Virus record (IMG/VR): IMGVR_UViG_3300047472_000080
Span: 1 to 26,200 of that record
Length of the DNA: 26,200 nt
From: a virus
Direction: 5' to 3' (one strand)
Of this stretch, positions 15,909 to 26,052 are shown one piece after another (the first letter of the stretch is position 1; each line of letters begins with the position of its first letter). The notes under the pieces are model-generated. The model searched no databases. It had not been told where the DNA came from and saw nothing but the letters and a program-made list of their open reading frames with translations. Both the position numbers and the translations under genes were made by a program.

Positions 15909-16127
15909 ATGGCCCTCGAAAACCTGAAGGACCACCTCATGAGCGCCGTAGCAACCGCTGCGGTCCTCGGGGGTGGCACCGCTATCTTCACCGATCACGT
16001 CGCCATCTCTCGCCAAGACGTCCGCATTGAGCGGATCGAGAAGCTGGACGAGCGCATGACCAAGCTCGACGAGCGCCTCGTCGCGACCCAGCTGGCGCTT
16101 GCCAAGGTGTCCGATGAGCCGCGCTAA
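15909..16127 (+). CDS. Putative holin (single membrane segment)
   Basis: This 72-residue protein has one hydrophobic segment (about residues 11-28, MSAVATAAVLGGGTAIF) followed by a charged heptad-patterned helix (IERIEKLDERMTKLDERLVATQLAL). It lies immediately before the small terminase, the position of the class II holin gene 17.5 in T7. Size and single membrane span fit a holin, but the long C-terminal coiled coil is not typical, so a spanin-like or other membrane role is possible. No endolysin is adjacent. ATG directly follows the preceding stop (TAAATG). Confidence 0.55.
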   Translation: MALENLKDHLMSAVATAAVLGGGTAIFTDHVAISRQDVRIERIEKLDERMTKLDERLVATQLALAKVSDEPR

Positions 16128-16383
16128 CAGCGACCTCCTCGATCTCATCCACGGGCTCGTCGCGAGTTCCCTGAAGGACGAGCTGGTCCGCGCCGCCGAG
16201 ATGGCGTCCCACAAAGACGCCGAGAAGCGCGTTCCGATTAACCCCCAGCTGATCGACAAGGCCATGAAGTTCCTGAAGGACAATGGCATCGACGCACCGA
16301 AGGCGAACCGCCCGGTCGACGATCTCGCTCAGACGCTGGGCGACCTCAACCTAGACGAAGAGGCCGCGAGCCTCCGTCACTGA
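16114..16383 (+). CDS. Small terminase subunit (T7 gp18-like)
   Basis: This 89-residue protein matches T7 gp18 (89 residues) in length and position. It is helical at the N-terminus (MSRANSDLLDLIHGLVASSL). It contains INPQLIDKAMKFLKDNGID, resembling the T7 'LYNAINKLLDRHKF' segment and other small-terminase DNA-recognition helices, and ends in an acidic tail. ATG at 16114 is chosen over an upstream in-frame ATG because AAGG lies seven bases before it and the N-terminus then fits the family. It overlaps the holin-like gene by 14 bases. It would recognise the packaging/end-formation region and regulate the large subunit. Confidence 0.82.
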   Translation: MSRANSDLLDLIHGLVASSLKDELVRAAEMASHKDAEKRVPINPQLIDKAMKFLKDNGIDAPKANRPVDDLAQTLGDLNLDEEAASLRH

Positions 16384-18056: not shown

Positions 18057-19778
18057 TTGAACTCCCGAGACATTCTCCGGGGGGACTTCCTGAAGTTCCT
18101 CTGGTTCGTCTGGACCCGGCTGCTGCTGCTGCCTGCGCCCACACGGATACAGCTCGACATCGCCCGCTTCCTGCAGGGTGGTCCGAAGCGCCGCTTCATC
18201 CAAGCCTTCCGAGGGGTCGGCAAGACCTTCCTCACCGCCGCCTATGTGGTCTGGCGGCTCTGGAACAACCCCGACCTGAAGATCATGATCGTGTCGGCCA
18301 ACGAGGCCTTCGCGACCGAGATCGCCTCCTTCATCAAGCAGATCATCGACCACGAGGTTGGTGACGACCTCTGGGCCGAGCTGCGTGCCCGCACGGGCCA
18401 GCGACAGTCCGCCCTGATCTTCGACGTGGGACCGGCCAAGGCCGACAAGTCCCCTTCGGTGAAGGCGGTCGGCATCACCGGCCAGCTCACCGGCTCCCGC
18501 GCCGACCTCGTCATCTCTGACGACGTTGAGGTGCCTAAGAACTCCGAGACGGAAACCATGCGCGAGAAGCTCGTGCAGAAGACCGCTGAGTACGCGGCTA
18601 TCCTGAAGCCGGGCGGCGAGATCATCTACCTCGGCACCCCGCAGAGCGAGCAGTCCATCTACCGGGCTCTCCCTGAGAAGGGCTATCAGGTCCGCGTCTG
18701 GCCCGCCCGCTATCCCCTGAAGGAGAAGCTGGCGAACTATGGCGGGTTCCTCGCGCCCCTCCTCATGGCAGACATCGCCGCGAACGAGGCCCTGCAGAAG
18801 CCCGAGGGTTCCACCTTGGGTGGCGCCGTCACCGATCCCAACCGCTTCAACGACCTAGACCTGATCGAGCGTGAGACGGAGTATCGGGGCGCGGGCTTCC
18901 TCCTGCAGTACCAGCTCGACACGACCCTGTCGGACGCCGAGCGTTACCCGCTCAAGACCCGCGACCTCATCGTCATGGACGTCGACCGCAAGGTTGCCCC
19001 CGGCCGAGTGGTCTGGGGCAGCTCACCTGAGCTGGCGATCAAGGACATCGAGAACATTGGCTTCGACGGCGACCGGCTCTTCCGGCCCATGCACGTCTCC
19101 TCGGAGTTCCTGCCCTACACCGGGGCTGCGATGCACATCGATCCCTCCGGCCGTGGTCGGGACAAGACCACCTATGTGGTCACCAAGTTCATCGCCGGGT
19201 TCATCTATGTGACCCGCTGGGGTGGCTTTCAGGACGGCTATGGGAAGGAGACGCTCGCGGCTCTCGCCCAGATCGCTGCCGAGGAAGAGGTCAACATCAT
19301 CGTCCCCGAGGACAACTTCGGTGACGGCATGTTCGGCAAGCTGCTCGAGCCCTACGTCAACGCCATCCGACCATGTCGGGTAGAAGGCGTCAAATCGAAG
19401 GGCCAGAAGGAAGTCCGCATCATCGGCACCTTGGAGCCCGTCATCCGCCAGCATCGTCTGGTGGTGGACGCCAACGTCTGCCGAGCGGACCTCAAGCTCC
19501 CTGCAGTCCACTCAGGGCTGTACCAGCTGACCCACATGACCTCCGCGCGTGGTGCCCTCAAGCATGACGACATGGTCGACGTCCTGGCCCTCGGGGTCGG
19601 ACACTGGGTCGACTACCTCAACGCCGATGCCCTCAAGGCAGAGCAGGAGCGCAAGGCTCGGTTCGATGCCGACTTCGAGCGCAAGCTGTTCGCCTCAACG
19701 GTCTTCGGGGCTCACCTCAAGAAGCCCTCAAGTCTGTCCGCACGGAGAGGCCGAGGGAGAGCCGTGGGGAGGCGATAA
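18057..19778 (+). CDS. Large terminase subunit (T7 gp19-like)
   Basis: This 573-residue packaging ATPase/nuclease starts with TTG at 18057 behind AAAGGAG; the T7 family start and reading frame both support it. Walker A is FRGVGKT (about 51-57) and a Walker B-like strand is ADLVISDDVE (about 149-158), the T7-type arrangement. The C-terminal nuclease has an acidic metal site at HIDPSGRGRDKTTYVV (Asp about 362) and another at KHDDMVDVLALGVG (about 500-510). It translocates DNA into the procapsid and cuts the concatemer. In T7 this is the last major gene before the right genome end, which matters for reading what follows here. Confidence 0.95.
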   Translation: MNSRDILRGDFLKFLWFVWTRLLLLPAPTRIQLDIARFLQGGPKRRFIQAFRGVGKTFLTAAYVVWRLWNNPDLKIMIVSANEAFATEIASFIKQIIDHEVGDDLWAELRARTGQRQSALIFDVGPAKADKSPSVKAVGITGQLTGSRADLVISDDVEVPKNSETETMREKLVQKTAEYAAILKPGGEIIYLGTPQSEQSIYRALPEKGYQVRVWPARYPLKEKLANYGGFLAPLLMADIAANEALQKPEGSTLGGAVTDPNRFNDLDLIERETEYRGAGFLLQYQLDTTLSDAERYPLKTRDLIVMDVDRKVAPGRVVWGSSPELAIKDIENIGFDGDRLFRPMHVSSEFLPYTGAAMHIDPSGRGRDKTTYVVTKFIAGFIYVTRWGGFQDGYGKETLAALAQIAAEEEVNIIVPEDNFGDGMFGKLLEPYVNAIRPCRVEGVKSKGQKEVRIIGTLEPVIRQHRLVVDANVCRADLKLPAVHSGLYQLTHMTSARGALKHDDMVDVLALGVGHWVDYLNADALKAEQERKARFDADFERKLFASTVFGAHLKKPSSLSARRGRGRAVGRR

Positions 19779-19782
19779 GGAG

Positions 19783-19809
19783 AGGGGTGGGGACAAGTGC
19801 CCCACCTCT
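19783..19809 (+). terminator. Hairpin just after large terminase
   Basis: GGTGGGG/CCCCACC with a seven-base loop, extended by three further pairs (one G-U), begins five bases after the terminase stop. There is no T-run, so it is either a weak or factor-assisted terminator or a 3' mRNA-stabilising hairpin at the end of the late operon. Confidence 0.45.
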
Positions 19810-20288
19810 ACCCACCAAGCTCCTGTGGGCATCTGCGGGTGAACCTGAAGGGGCTCTGCGGGGCTCCCCTAAGTAACCTTATATAATCCCACCCTCCAAG
19901 GGTGCGGGCTAATTGAGGTCGGTCACTTTTTGCTCAAAAATCCGAAGGGCCAAGCGCACAGCGCGAGACGCCGGGTGCCCCCCATGCCACCCCCGGCACT
20001 GAGGAGGCCCGGCCGTGCCCTAGGGGGCTCCTGCCCTGTCACTAGCGGTGCGGAATGGGTCGAAATGCTGCTTTCATTGGCACGATACGGTGTCACGATC
20101 ATGCTAAGTGCTTGATATTGCATAGGCCCATTCCCTCTGCATAGGGGAAGGCATGAGGTAGTCATGCCCTGCCAGCCCTGAGGGTGACGCCTAGGGCCGA
20201 TGGGGTGGCACTGCGGGGCGCCTGTGGGGCTCGCCTGCCGTCGCTTTCCTCTTCCCTCCGCTCTGCCCTGCTTTTTTCGTTTTGGCTT
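19810..20288. other. Gene-poor region after terminase, probable left part of genome-end junction
   Basis: No reading frame here has a Shine-Dalgarno or protein-like composition. Visible items are a small ACCCT-CCA-AGGGT hairpin (19891-19903) just after an AT-rich TTATATAAT patch, and scattered CCTNNGG heptamers (CCTAGGG at 20019 and 20190, CCTGAGG at 20177, CCTGTGG at 20221). There is also a direct repeat TGCATAGG at 20119 and 20138 (19 bp apart), the second half lying in a near-palindrome TTCCC...GGGAA. A T-run at 20271-20276 lacks a matching stem. In T7 the terminal repeat and right-end signals would lie at this position. Confidence 0.5.
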
Positions 20289-20376
20289 CCTACGGGCCAT
20301 CCTAGGGCAATCCTGCGGCAATCCTGCGGTCCATCCTGCCGTGCCCTGCGGGCTTCCTGCGGGCGCGATCCTAAGG
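20289..20376 (+). repeat. Helically phased CCTNNGG heptamer array (T7 SRL/SRR-like)
   Basis: Eight heptamers start at 20289, 20301, 20312, 20323, 20335, 20345, 20356 and 20370 (CCTACGG, CCTAGGG, CCTGCGG, CCTGCGG, CCTGCCG, CCTGCGG, CCTGCGG, CCTAAGG). The spacing is 10-14 bp, mostly 11, close to one helical turn. In T7, arrays of imperfect CCTAAAG heptamers flank the terminal repeat. The match in unit length, CCT start and position after the large terminase makes this a strong candidate for the equivalent end-processing or packaging signal. No reading frame explains the periodicity, because 11 is not a multiple of three. Confidence 0.75.
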
Positions 20377-20423
20377 AGAACATGGGGAGACGCTGAGGGG
20401 GCCGATGGGGAAAAATGAATGAT

Positions 20424-20431
20424 AGTTCCAC
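20424..20431 (+). promoter_or_regulatory. Half copy of the AGTTCCAC site
   Basis: AGTTCCAC matches the first eight bases of the repeated operator-like site and begins 17 bp before the full copy at 20441-20460, so the two would present on nearly the same face of the helix. It lies just upstream of the early promoter. Confidence 0.4.
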
Positions 20432-20440
20432 AAACCGCAC

Positions 20441-20460
20441 AATTCCGTTTGACAGACTGT
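20441..20460 (+). promoter_or_regulatory. Operator-like site covering the early promoter -35 box
   Basis: This copy matches the 20-base consensus AGTTCCACTAGACAGACTGT at 16 of 20 positions. Its TTGACA core is at the same time the candidate -35 hexamer (20449-20454). A protein bound here would block RNA polymerase, which is the expected place for a lysogenic repressor operator. Confidence 0.6.
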
Positions 20461-20478
20461 TTTTGGTTCGGCTAAAAG
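20449..20478 (+). promoter_or_regulatory. Sigma70-type early promoter
   Basis: A perfect TTGACA (20449-20454) is followed 18 bases later by TAAAAG (20473-20478); a 17-base spacer gives CTAAAA instead. The surroundings are AT-richer than the region average. It points toward the block of small genes and would be the host-polymerase early promoter of the T7-like programme. Transcription would start near 20485, giving a leader of roughly 310 bases. Confidence 0.6.
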
Positions 20479-20484
20479 CTAAAT

Positions 20485-20751
20485 CACCGCAGCGGCCCAA
20501 CGGCGCCAAGCGGTACGGCCAACCAACCCCGGCCAAGCATAGAGGGGATGGCGGAAGACCGAGGCCGAGCCCGTAGTGAGGGTGGCGCAGTAGGGCTCCG
20601 TGATTGCCAGCAAGCGGCAGGCGCAGCGTCGGATGACGCGGTGCCCTGAAGCGAACGCCCTAGGGTGGACACTGGCCAAACACAGCGGACGGCAGGGGCA
20701 AGCCTGAGGGGCCGCAAAGGAAACTGCGGGAGCAATCCCGCCGGTTCCTAG
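20485..20751 (+). ncRNA. Hairpin-rich untranslated early leader or small RNA
   Basis: Between the promoter and the first early gene there is no convincing reading frame. Several complementary segments are present: GAGCCC (20567-20572) with GGGCTC (20593-20598), TGCC/GGCA (20605-20619), GCGTC-GGAT-GACGC (20626-20639) and GCGGGA-GCAA-TCCCGC (20726-20741), the last closed by a GNRA tetraloop. These suggest a structured leader or stand-alone RNA. No known RNA class is recognised. CCTAGGG (20659) and CCTGAGG (20703) heptamers also occur, so part of it may instead belong to the genome-end signal. Confidence 0.4.
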
Positions 20752-20790
20752 AGGGGCGCTGCGGTGCCCTTCCAGCAACCGCAAAGGGGA
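20752..20790 (+). repeat. Two-hairpin leader element, copy A
   Basis: AGGGGC (20752-20757) pairs with GCCCTT (20766-20771), followed by CCAGC and a degenerate CCGC-AAA-GGGG. It shares its layout with copies B and C and lies just before the Shine-Dalgarno of the gene at 20797. Confidence 0.5.
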
Positions 20791-20796
20791 CTTCAC

Positions 20797-20973
20797 ATGA
20801 TCCGTTCGATCCGCCTCGCTCTTGCATGGCGCCGCTTCAATGCCGCCGATGCCCGCTTCCGTGCCTATCAGGGGATGGCCGCTGGTGCGGGCTGGAGCCA
20901 TGCCGTTGCATGCGCCCTGCGGTCTGACTTGGTACGCCACGAGCGCGCCCTGTCTCACCTCATCAACGCCTAA
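20797..20973 (+). CDS. Early small protein, unknown function
   Basis: This 58-residue basic helical protein begins MIRSIRLALAWRRFNAADARF and contains HAVACALRSDLVRHERALSHL. AAAGGGGA precedes the ATG at 20797 by about six bases, which favours it over the upstream in-frame ATG. It is the first gene after the early promoter, the place where T7-like phages carry host-takeover peptides. No family is recognised. An operator-like site follows its stop by one base. Confidence 0.65.
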   Translation: MIRSIRLALAWRRFNAADARFRAYQGMAAGAGWSHAVACALRSDLVRHERALSHLINA

Positions 20974-21005: not shown

Positions 21006-21776
21006 ATGTTCCAGATCAATCCTGCCCTAGAGCCCGCACCCGCCGACATCGGCAAGGCAAACGGCGTCATCCTGTATCGCGGCCCTTCCAAGCTTGACGG
21101 GGCGCCGATTGTGGTGGTGGCAACCGGGCTCGCAAGGGGGAGCCGCAACGCTAAGACCGGCGCAATGGTGCAAACGTATATCCTGCGGGATGACATGCAC
21201 CCTATCGACGCGGTGCGGAGCGGCGCCGACGTTTCCATCTGCGGGACGTGTCCGCATCGCGGTGACGGGACGGGCAAGGGCCGCAGCTGCTACGTCACCC
21301 TAGCGCACGGCCCGCGCTCCGTTTGGGAAGGGCTGAAGCGGGGCATCTACCCTCGCGTTGACGCCTTCACGGCCCGCGCTCTCTTCGCTGGCAAGATGGT
21401 GCGTCTCGGCACCTACGGTGATCCTGCGGCGGCACCTAGGGCGCTCTGGAAGGTAGCCCTGAAGGACGCTGCGGGCTGGACCGGCTACACTCACCAATGG
21501 CGCACGGTGGAGTCGGAATGGGCCGCCCTAGTCATGGCGTCGGCCGATAGCGTGGCGGATATGGATGCGGCGCACGCTGCGGGCTGGCGGACGTTTCGCG
21601 TCACTGCGGAGCCCTTGGCGAACCTGAAGGGCCGCGAAGTCGTCTGCCCTGCCAGCGAGGAAGCCGGGAAGCGCACGGATTGCGCCAGCTGCAAGGCGTG
21701 CATGGGCACGGCAGGCAAGGCCCGCGTTTCGATCCAGATCGCAGCGCACGGCGGCGGCAAGCGTCACGTTCAATAG
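21006..21776 (+). CDS. Cysteine-cluster phage protein of unknown function
   Basis: This 256-residue protein is the largest early gene. It has two cysteine groups: C79-x2-C82 with C95 (SICGTCPHR...SCYV), and C214 with C226-x2-C229-x2-C232 (VVCPASEE...CASCKAC), suggesting zinc or iron-sulphur binding. Other marked motifs are NAKTGAMVQTYILRDDMHPIDAV, VRLGTYGDPAA and GWTGYTHQWR. From memory, proteins with these motifs occur in diverse phages and plasmids as a family of unknown function; I cannot confirm the family name. GAGGGAG precedes the ATG by about six bases. An enzymatic role acting on nucleic acid or metabolites is possible but unproven. Confidence 0.85.
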   Translation: MFQINPALEPAPADIGKANGVILYRGPSKLDGAPIVVVATGLARGSRNAKTGAMVQTYILRDDMHPIDAVRSGADVSICGTCPHRGDGTGKGRSCYVTLAHGPRSVWEGLKRGIYPRVDAFTARALFAGKMVRLGTYGDPAAAPRALWKVALKDAAGWTGYTHQWRTVESEWAALVMASADSVADMDAAHAAGWRTFRVTAEPLANLKGREVVCPASEEAGKRTDCASCKACMGTAGKARVSIQIAAHGGGKRHVQ

Positions 21777-24304: not shown

Positions 24305-24766
24305 ATGCTCGCGATGGAAAACGCAAAAGCGAAGACAGGGGCGAAGCGAATGACAGGGGGAACGACGAGGTCGAAGAGCGACCCGCTTTTCAAGCACGTA
24401 GGCGCGTTGGCCGACTTTTCTTCGGCGCTGATCTCCCTTGCTCAAGCGGCGCCGGATCGGATGACGATGTCACAAGGCGTCTTCTTCCTTCTCGCGGCAG
24501 GTGCTGACCTCGCGGGCAGGCCAACCACATTCACGGAAATCCGTGAGACGGCCGGGCCGAGCATCAATCGCAGCATGCACACCACCTACAAGGTACTGCT
24601 GGACGAGCCGTTAGAGCGCGTTGATGCACCTCGGCAGAAGTGCCTCGGCTGGCTCCAGCGCCACACAAACCCACTGAACGGTCGGGAGAAGTTCCTGACG
24701 CTCACCCCGAAGGGCCGCGAGATCATCCGCGAAGTCCTCTCGGCAATCACCGGAGAAAACCTCTGA
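24305..24766 (+). CDS. MarR-like winged-helix regulator
   Basis: This 153-residue protein has a basic N-terminal arm (about 1-25), a helical segment (30-50) and a winged helix-turn-helix. The HTH is about 55-100 (MSQGVFFLLAAGADLAGRP, TFTEIRETAGPSINRSMHTTY). A wing about 118-133 (QRHTNPLNGREKFLTLTPKG) carries the MarR-style 'L-T-x-K-G-R' ending. GGAGG seven bases upstream supports ATG at 24305. Its stop overlaps the integrase start (TGATG), so the two are co-translated. It is the best candidate for the lysogeny repressor or an integration regulator in this window. No DNA-binding specificity can be read directly. Confidence 0.72.
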   Translation: MLAMENAKAKTGAKRMTGGTTRSKSDPLFKHVGALADFSSALISLAQAAPDRMTMSQGVFFLLAAGADLAGRPTTFTEIRETAGPSINRSMHTTYKVLLDEPLERVDAPRQKCLGWLQRHTNPLNGREKFLTLTPKGREIIREVLSAITGENL

Positions 24767-26052
24767 TGGCTGACATCAAGACCAAGCCGAACGGCATTCA
24801 TTATCTCGAGGTGCGCGTGCCGGGGCCGGACGGCGCCCTCAAGCGCCAGCGCATATCCTGCGACACCCGCGACATGGACGAGGCGAAGCAGCAGAAGGGC
24901 CTGTGGCTCGCTGGCCTGCACCCTCAGCACCCCGCGCAGGGCGGCGTCGTCGCACCCAAGAGGCGCGGCCATGTCGGCAACAGTTCCACTGGACAGATAG
25001 TGCGTCAAACGGAAGGCGGCCTCACGGTCGAGCAGCTGATGACGCGCTGCCTGACGGAACGGAAGGTCTGGGGCGCGTGCCGCGCGAAGCGCACCCATGA
25101 GAGCAACGTCCGCATCATCGCCCGCATGCTGCCGACCAAGCTGCCGCTGGCAGAGCTGTCGACCCAGCACGTCAAAGACCTGAGCGCCGCGATGGCCGAG
25201 GCGGGCTACGCTGACGCATCCCAGAGGAAGCTGCTGGGCTCCCTGTCGGCCGCCTGCCGGTTCGCTGAGGACGAGGGCCTGATCCTGAGCCGCCCGCGCT
25301 TCCCCTCGATCCGCGTGGAGAACGTGCAGGACCGCGTCGTGAGCCTCGACGAAGAGGACGCCATGCTGGCTTGCATCGACGCCCGCATCGACGCTGAGCC
25401 GCTCCGCGCTTGGTGGGCCTTCAAGCAGCTGGTCGTCCTGCTGCTCGACACGGGCTTCCGGCTGGGCGAGGGCCTGCAGTGCGGGCCGTCGAGCGTGAAG
25501 CGCAAGCGGTGGCTGGATCACCGTGGCCGGGCCAGCGAGGGGACGTGGCTGGGCCTCCAGCGCGGCACCACCAAGAACATGAAGCCGCGCGACGTGCCCT
25601 GCACCCAGCGTGTCCTTCAGCTACTCCCAAAGCTGAACGAGCGGGCCGCTGGCGGGCGCTGGTTTCCGTGGCCGCTGGGCTCGTCGGGTCCGCTCTATCT
25701 CCTGCAGTGCATCCGGCAGGATATGGCGGCCAAGGGCTTCGCGTTCGAGGACGTCAAGCTGCACACCTTCCGGCACACCTGCGCTACCCGGCTGGCCGAG
25801 GGCGGGATGGATTTGGTGTCCCTGCGGGATTGGCTGGGGCACTCGGACATCAAGATCACGGCGGCCCGCTACGTCCACCTGATGAACGGCCACATCTATC
25901 GCGGGGCTGCGATCCTAGATGTCTATGGACCCGGTCACTCAATTGGAGCAGATGCGGGAAATGAGGACGAGGAAGAGACTAACCACTCCACTGGAAATAC
26001 TCTGTCTAATGGAAGGGATCGTGGCGAGCCTGTCACGATGGGTGTCTGCTAA
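24766..26052 (+). CDS. Tyrosine recombinase integrase
   Basis: This 428-residue integrase has an N-terminal arm-binding-like beta domain (1-50: KPNGIHYLEVRVPG, KRQRISCDTRD), a variable linker (about 52-85), a core-binding SAM-like domain (about 86-175) and the catalytic domain. Catalytic residues fit the family: R232 (DTGFRLGEGL), K270 (TTKNMK), H333 and R336 (HTFRHTCATRL), H359 (WLGHSD) and nucleophile Y369 (ARYVHL). A 59-residue tail follows Y369; its last part is Asn/Glu/Gly-rich and AT-richer, and may not be conserved. The start overlaps the regulator stop. An operator-like site lies within the linker codons. It would integrate the circularised phage at a host attB. Confidence 0.93.
   Translation: MADIKTKPNGIHYLEVRVPGPDGALKRQRISCDTRDMDEAKQQKGLWLAGLHPQHPAQGGVVAPKRRGHVGNSSTGQIVRQTEGGLTVEQLMTRCLTERKVWGACRAKRTHESNVRIIARMLPTKLPLAELSTQHVKDLSAAMAEAGYADASQRKLLGSLSAACRFAEDEGLILSRPRFPSIRVENVQDRVVSLDEEDAMLACIDARIDAEPLRAWWAFKQLVVLLLDTGFRLGEGLQCGPSSVKRKRWLDHRGRASEGTWLGLQRGTTKNMKPRDVPCTQRVLQLLPKLNERAAGGRWFPWPLGSSGPLYLLQCIRQDMAAKGFAFEDVKLHTFRHTCATRLAEGGMDLVSLRDWLGHSDIKITAARYVHLMNGHIYRGAAILDVYGPGHSIGADAGNEDEEETNHSTGNTLSNGRDRGEPVTMGVC
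24982..25001 (+). promoter_or_regulatory. Operator-like site inside integrase gene
   Basis: This copy matches the 20-base consensus at 17 of 20 positions and encodes residues 72-78 (NSSTGQI) in the low-constraint linker of the integrase. Its occurrence where codons are free to vary supports selection for the DNA site. Confidence 0.55.

Follow-up and report, generated by a model that had tools for sequence, protein, structure and literature searches.

The gap downstream of the large terminase gene in a linear viral record of 26,200 bp from IMG/VR (the window, meaning the whole stretch of DNA analysed) is very probably the concatemer junction of a T7-like phage that carries an integrase, and the row of GC-rich heptamers within it, at 20289–20376 on the plus strand, would be its left-end array, the equivalent of SRL in T7. 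This reading comes from the sequence and from comparison with phages whose ends are annotated, the yardstick being the T7 record V01146 with its 160-bp repeat. An earlier note on this DNA had proposed a T7-type end array, and the proposal holds up in part: the heptamers are the positional equivalent of the T7 end array, and the offsets of the neighboring boxes match annotated phage ends.

Why does such an array matter? To our knowledge, the function of the arrays that flank the terminal repeat is unsettled, and a whole family of phages with a row at the T7 end-repeat spot, but with changing letters, offers a way into the role of these unexplained repeats. Across about two dozen junctions, the letters of the array vary but its position and period do not, and the right-cut box often has a second copy that closes the array, making function testable by swaps and deletions. 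Chung et al. (1990, cited in PMC4925675) are said to have described a hairpin intermediate in the processing of T7 ends. Searches of the openly available literature found no phage paper on CCTAAAG and terminal repeats, none joining bacteriophage T7, SRL, SRR and terminal repeat, and, for CTATCTGT together with phage and terminal repeat, one unrelated paper. According to PMC3350473, completion of the left terminal repeat in T7-like phages is not fully understood.

Terminases, boxes and the predicted terminal repeat

Both genes of a T7-type terminase lie upstream of the gap. The small terminase gene (T7 gp18-type; 16114–16383, plus strand), scanned as the longer ORF 16099–16383, matches Pfam PF11123, DNA_Packaging_2, with an E value of 5.7e-11, exceeding the curated cut-off, and its product is presumably the partner of the junction. 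The large terminase gene (T7 gp19-type; 18057–19778, plus strand) matches PF22530, Terminase-T7 RNaseH-like (E 1.2e-32), and phrog_38, terminase (E 8.4e-110). It is followed by 1,019 bp with no convincing genes (19779–20797) and then by the early genes. Head assembly, major head, tail and internal virion proteins are also encoded in the window, as is a tyrosine integrase (24640–26052), 4.3 kb from the array; there was no Rfam match and no tRNA in it. The contig is probably incomplete, and it holds one copy of the junction.

Among named phages, those with the nearest terminases are "Mycobacterium phage jiawei" (OR464703; 67%) and Caulobacter phage S2B (MN857473; TerL 65% identical), and nearer terminases, up to 82%, come from IMG/VR contigs and one Novosphingobium contig. 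Despite its Mycobacterium label, jiawei has a Caulobacter phage and contigs of the window's clade as its terminase and end-region kin, and the host label may be wrong. The early protein encoded at 21006–21776 matches phrog_2554 and, weakly, DUF7227, and at least 475 viral contigs encode a relative of it; paired end boxes lie upstream in 11 of the 80 that were kept among these.

Where would the ends lie? The putative left-cut box, AAAAATCCGAAG (19936–19947, plus strand), is the one occurrence of AAAAATC[CT]GA in the window, counting both strands. In T7 (where the corresponding box reads AAAAATCTGA), T3, gh-1 and S2B, the annotated repeat begins 17 nt from the start of this box, and the 271-bp repeat predicted by PhageTerm in Rhizobium phage Pasto (MT708545) begins at the same distance from the start of AAAAATCCGA; the left edge in the window is predicted from this same offset. 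The offset deviates in 3MF5 (14 nt), LUZ100 (about 29 nt) and ProddE (about 25 nt). (Lo5R7ANS, RHEph01, CRP-114 and BB8, whose records hold no usable mapped ends, are outside this calibration.) A C6-AT block follows at 19978–19985 on the plus strand, 42 nt from the start of the left box, a spacing shared with the T7 junction, in which the similar CCCCCATAGGGGG (C5-ATA-G5) stands 42 nt from the box start, at repeat position 26.

On the other side, the putative right-cut box, CCCTGCTTTTTTCG (20266–20279, plus strand), is the sole CCTGC[N]TTTTTT in the window on both strands. The annotated 259-bp repeat of S2B, both edges of which fall on the boxes, ends at the base immediately preceding CCCTGCTTTTTTCG, and this is also where a metagenome contig (L020) stops, judged on the sequence of its sister L021. 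In 16 loci, the 1.5 kb downstream of the terminase contains 16 copies of the pattern (12 of the 16 loci having matches), and the other 314,586 strand-bases of these loci contain none. T7, T3 and Pasto, on the other hand, have CCCT/ATCTGTT at the annotated right edge (the slash marking the edge), and the window has CCCTGCTTTTTTCG in its place, with a different sequence after CCCT; the true cut in the window may therefore be four bases further right.

Since the left-box offset is 17 nt and the S2B repeat ends at the right box, one copy of a direct terminal repeat is predicted at 19953–20265 by the S2B annotation, or up to 20269 by homology to T7, T3 and Pasto, its edges being transferred from these phages and gh-1. 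The repeat that had been proposed at about 20240–20640 is thus moved wholly to the left of the array. Arrays stand on both sides of the predicted repeat (19822–19874 and 20289–20376), and the heptamer copies noted at 20019–20240 fall inside it. These scattered copies are present as described, at 20019, 20177, 20190 and 20221, with two more at 20659 and 20703. The array to the left of the predicted repeat, read from the sequence on the plus strand, is SRR-like and consists of about five imperfect heptamers (19822, 19832, 19844, 19855 and 19868, only the first being exact), and the top self-similarity lag of this stretch is 10.

The heptamer array

Seven of the heptamers, at 20289, 20301, 20312, 20323, 20345, 20356 and 20370, are exact CCTNNGG copies on the plus strand, and the one at 20335 is CCTGCCG, with one mismatch; the array described earlier as eight CCTNNGG units is therefore real, with one unit fewer in exact form. 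Among 5000 dinucleotide-preserving shuffles of 19779–20797, none reached seven copies in 88 bp (maximum 4), a same-strand chain of four at spacings of 10–12 (maximum 3) or the total of 14 copies in that interval (maximum 10). No other five-letter pattern of the form xyzNNvw has seven copies per 88 bp in the window, the runner-up having five, and Tandem Repeats Finder reports an 11-bp array at 20288–20339. (A trio at 21412, 21423 and 21435 was set aside as coding, since it lies inside the ORF at 21006–21776 as codons for TYGDPAAAPRA.)

The spacings are 12, 11, 11, 12, 10, 11 and 14, and with a mean of 11.57 the heptamers creep round the helix. The supposition that they are kept on one helix face finds no support: with 10.5 bp taken as one turn, their phases spread over 257 degrees, with a resultant of 0.495 (P = 0.22 when compared with random spacings of 9–15).

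The array starts about 20 nt past the predicted right cut (20269 or 20265), and the T7 array starts at 175, 15 nt past the end of its repeat at 160. In both phages, an array follows directly past the right cut, copies occur inside the repeat and the terminases are of the T7 type. Like an SRL-type array, these tandem repeats begin no more than about 20 nt past the predicted right cut, on the left side of the genome. However, the units are CCTGCGG-like with a period of about 11, in place of CCTAAAG with a period of 13, and the array is thus the same in position and kind without being a T7-sequence array. The window also differs from T7 in its right box (CCCTGCTTTTTTCG versus CCCT/ATCTGTT), in the length of the repeat (predicted at about 313 versus 160 bp) and in the presence of an integrase.

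The junction and its arrays in relatives

Relatives share one layout: an array, the left box AAAAATCCGAAG, a C-rich block, 230–315 nt, the right box CCCTGCTTTTTTCG and a second array. Of 36 stretches downstream of the terminase, the clade counts leave out redundant ones (L006, L010, L012, L013, L017, L019 and L020), L022 (157 bp only), the distant relatives L028–L031 and L033–L038 and two that end before the junction (L007 and L026); L015 is truncated within the repeat. L094, found by the left-box pattern, enters the lag, unit and second-box counts and is not among the 21 junctions counted for the left box and C block; L138, with a variant left box, was read by eye only. The left box has at most 3 mismatches of 12 in 20 of 21 non-redundant junctions, the window included (L025 has 5), and all 21 have a C5 run 41–43 nt from its start, as does T7. 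Eighteen of the 21 have the G arm of the C-block palindrome, the three without it being L021, L082 and the window. When 21 junctions (with L094, without L015) are aligned, four blocks are conserved: the left box and the T-rich lead to it, the C block, a central TGGCGCGATATGGTGGCACGAT and, on the right, CCCTGCTTTTTTCG; in the window, a conserved block, TGGCACGATACGGTGTCACGAT, lies at 20078–20099 on the plus strand inside the predicted repeat. Just before the left box, most relatives have a hairpin, CACCCTCCAAGGGTG, followed by CTAATTG (19890–19920 in the window), and in S2B, jiawei and L023 the hairpin area is replaced by TACGTAGAAA.

Close relatives with conserved terminases have an array at the equivalent spot, and the proposal thereby passes one of the refuting checks set out in the earlier note. 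L082, a contig of Novosphingobium lindaniclasticum LE124 with a TerL identity of 80%, resembles the window in its boxes, its CCTGCGG-type array and its C block without a G arm, and differs in its right box, CCCTGCTTTTATCG. S2B has an array with a period of 11–12 and an integrase next to the RNA polymerase, but its units are mostly of the CACCGGGGGC form, with hardly any CCTNNGG. In Pasto, the array has a period of 12, whereas TerL is only 48% identical and the right box, at which its repeat ends, is of the T7 kind. Among nine distant relatives with TerL identities of 59% or less (L028–L031, L033–L035, L037 and L038), none has the right box, and three (L030, L035 and L037) have the left box and C block.

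The period is kept across the clade. In a test of 24 lags, six of which formed the favored set (10, 11, 12, 20, 21 and 22), 18 of 20 junctions (all but L024 and L032) had their top lag in this set for the array stretch past the right box and 17 of 20 for the SRR-side stretch, which lies to the left of the repeat, compared with 10 of 20 for the repeat itself and 5 of 19 for a control stretch 600 nt downstream. (L014, whose variant box the pattern missed, was not part of the test, and L008 had no control stretch.) The same test gave 13 for T7 and T3 and 12 for 3MF5 and Pasto. The letters, on the other hand, change: the unit is CCTGCGG in the window, CCTGTGG in L005, CCTGAGG in L021 and L023, CCTAAGG in L016, CACCGGGGG in S2B and jiawei and GGGCACCATGCC in L136. 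Of 21 junctions, 5 (L002, L008, L011, L024 and L032) have other units in the array stretch and no strict CCTNNGG there.

What the arrays might do

If this is a concatemer junction, replication would yield head-to-tail concatemers sharing one terminal repeat, and the T7-type terminase would make one cut at the right box (20266–20279) and another 17 nt past the first base of AAAAATCCGAAG, which is the left edge; the repeat would be duplicated between the two cuts. Arrays next to the terminal repeat occur in T7-like phages of Yersinia as well, for which PMC5923468 describes 11 to 34 variable repeats in the interval from the left terminal repeat to the first promoter of the phage, in line with a left-end array. 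The arrays on both sides would then act as repeated weak docking sites at the two cuts. We infer that the array has a role in concatemer processing and is bound by a protein; most likely, the arrays load either the terminase or a protein that duplicates the repeat. The unit letters of the two arrays of one genome match no more closely than expected by chance (P = 0.45 for the 14 usable junctions out of 21), which argues against one sequence-specific protein reading both. The G arm missing from the window, the deviating offsets in 3MF5, LUZ100 and ProddE and the five junctions with other units also count against this reading. Because the arrays conserve position and period but not letters, docking led by spacing, or turnover by duplication with the period constrained, fits them better than a strict sequence code.

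Might the array instead be a neutral minisatellite, replication or repair near DNA ends breeding short tandem repeats that have no function? Units are alike within an array and differ between phages, as tandem duplication predicts (central-letter identity 0.60 within versus 0.32 between, reached in 0 of 5000 permutations over 11 junctions). Moreover, the number of repeats in the Yersinia phages differs widely among near-identical phages (PMC5923468). Slippage, however, predicts varied periods, and the 10–12 or 20–22 period recurs in those 18 junctions despite differing units, with the array keeping its place beside the right box. A minisatellite is thus unlikely, though it deserves to be weighed.

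An iteron origin or bent-DNA element, serving replication rather than packaging, would suit the helix-scale periods of the window's clade, but it is improbable: the T7 array has a period of 13 bp, off the helix repeat, the main T7 replication origin lies elsewhere and the array in the window drifts round the helix. Operators or stoperators for a lysogeny repressor would sensibly lie upstream of the early genes, as the array does, in a phage with an integrase; Pasto and LUZ100 also have integrases and are described as temperate T7-like phages in PMC10134795. T7, however, is obligately lytic and has an array at the equivalent spot. The units also vary between phages and are mostly non-palindromic, and no sigma-70 promoter matching 9 of 12 positions was found near the array, making this role very improbable. 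Arm-type sites at an attachment site are scarcely credible, since the integrase, though encoded in the window, is 4.3 kb off with no heptamer cluster nearby, and T7, which is not known to have an integrase, has such an array.

A docking role for the arrays might extend to a further element. In 13 of 24 junctions, another CCTGC-T-run, mostly CCCTGCATTTTTTTC, lies 157–420 nt after the first right box, on the far side of the array. The strict form occurs in L003, L005, L009, L011, L014, L016, L023, L027, L032, L136, L168 and jiawei, and S2B has only the loose form CCTCTTTTTT; the window has no second right box, and among the 11 junctions without one, L008 offers only 208 bp. We know of no description of a duplicated right box closing a left-end array. 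It is tempting, if rather speculative and on balance doubtful, to view the left-end array as a bracketed cassette in which the second box would be a nick site for re-copying the repeat and the array would load the nicking complex. If so, this cassette would be the missing cis signal for left-end completion in T7-like phages.

The 17-nt rule and the two boxes allow ends to be predicted in genomes that were assembled as circles. Four more contigs found by the left-box pattern and kept out of the counts (L095, L100, L104 and L107) lack the right box, yet they have AAAAATCCGAAG and a C6 block at the same spacing, and the left box may thus help to locate ends in other phage groups.
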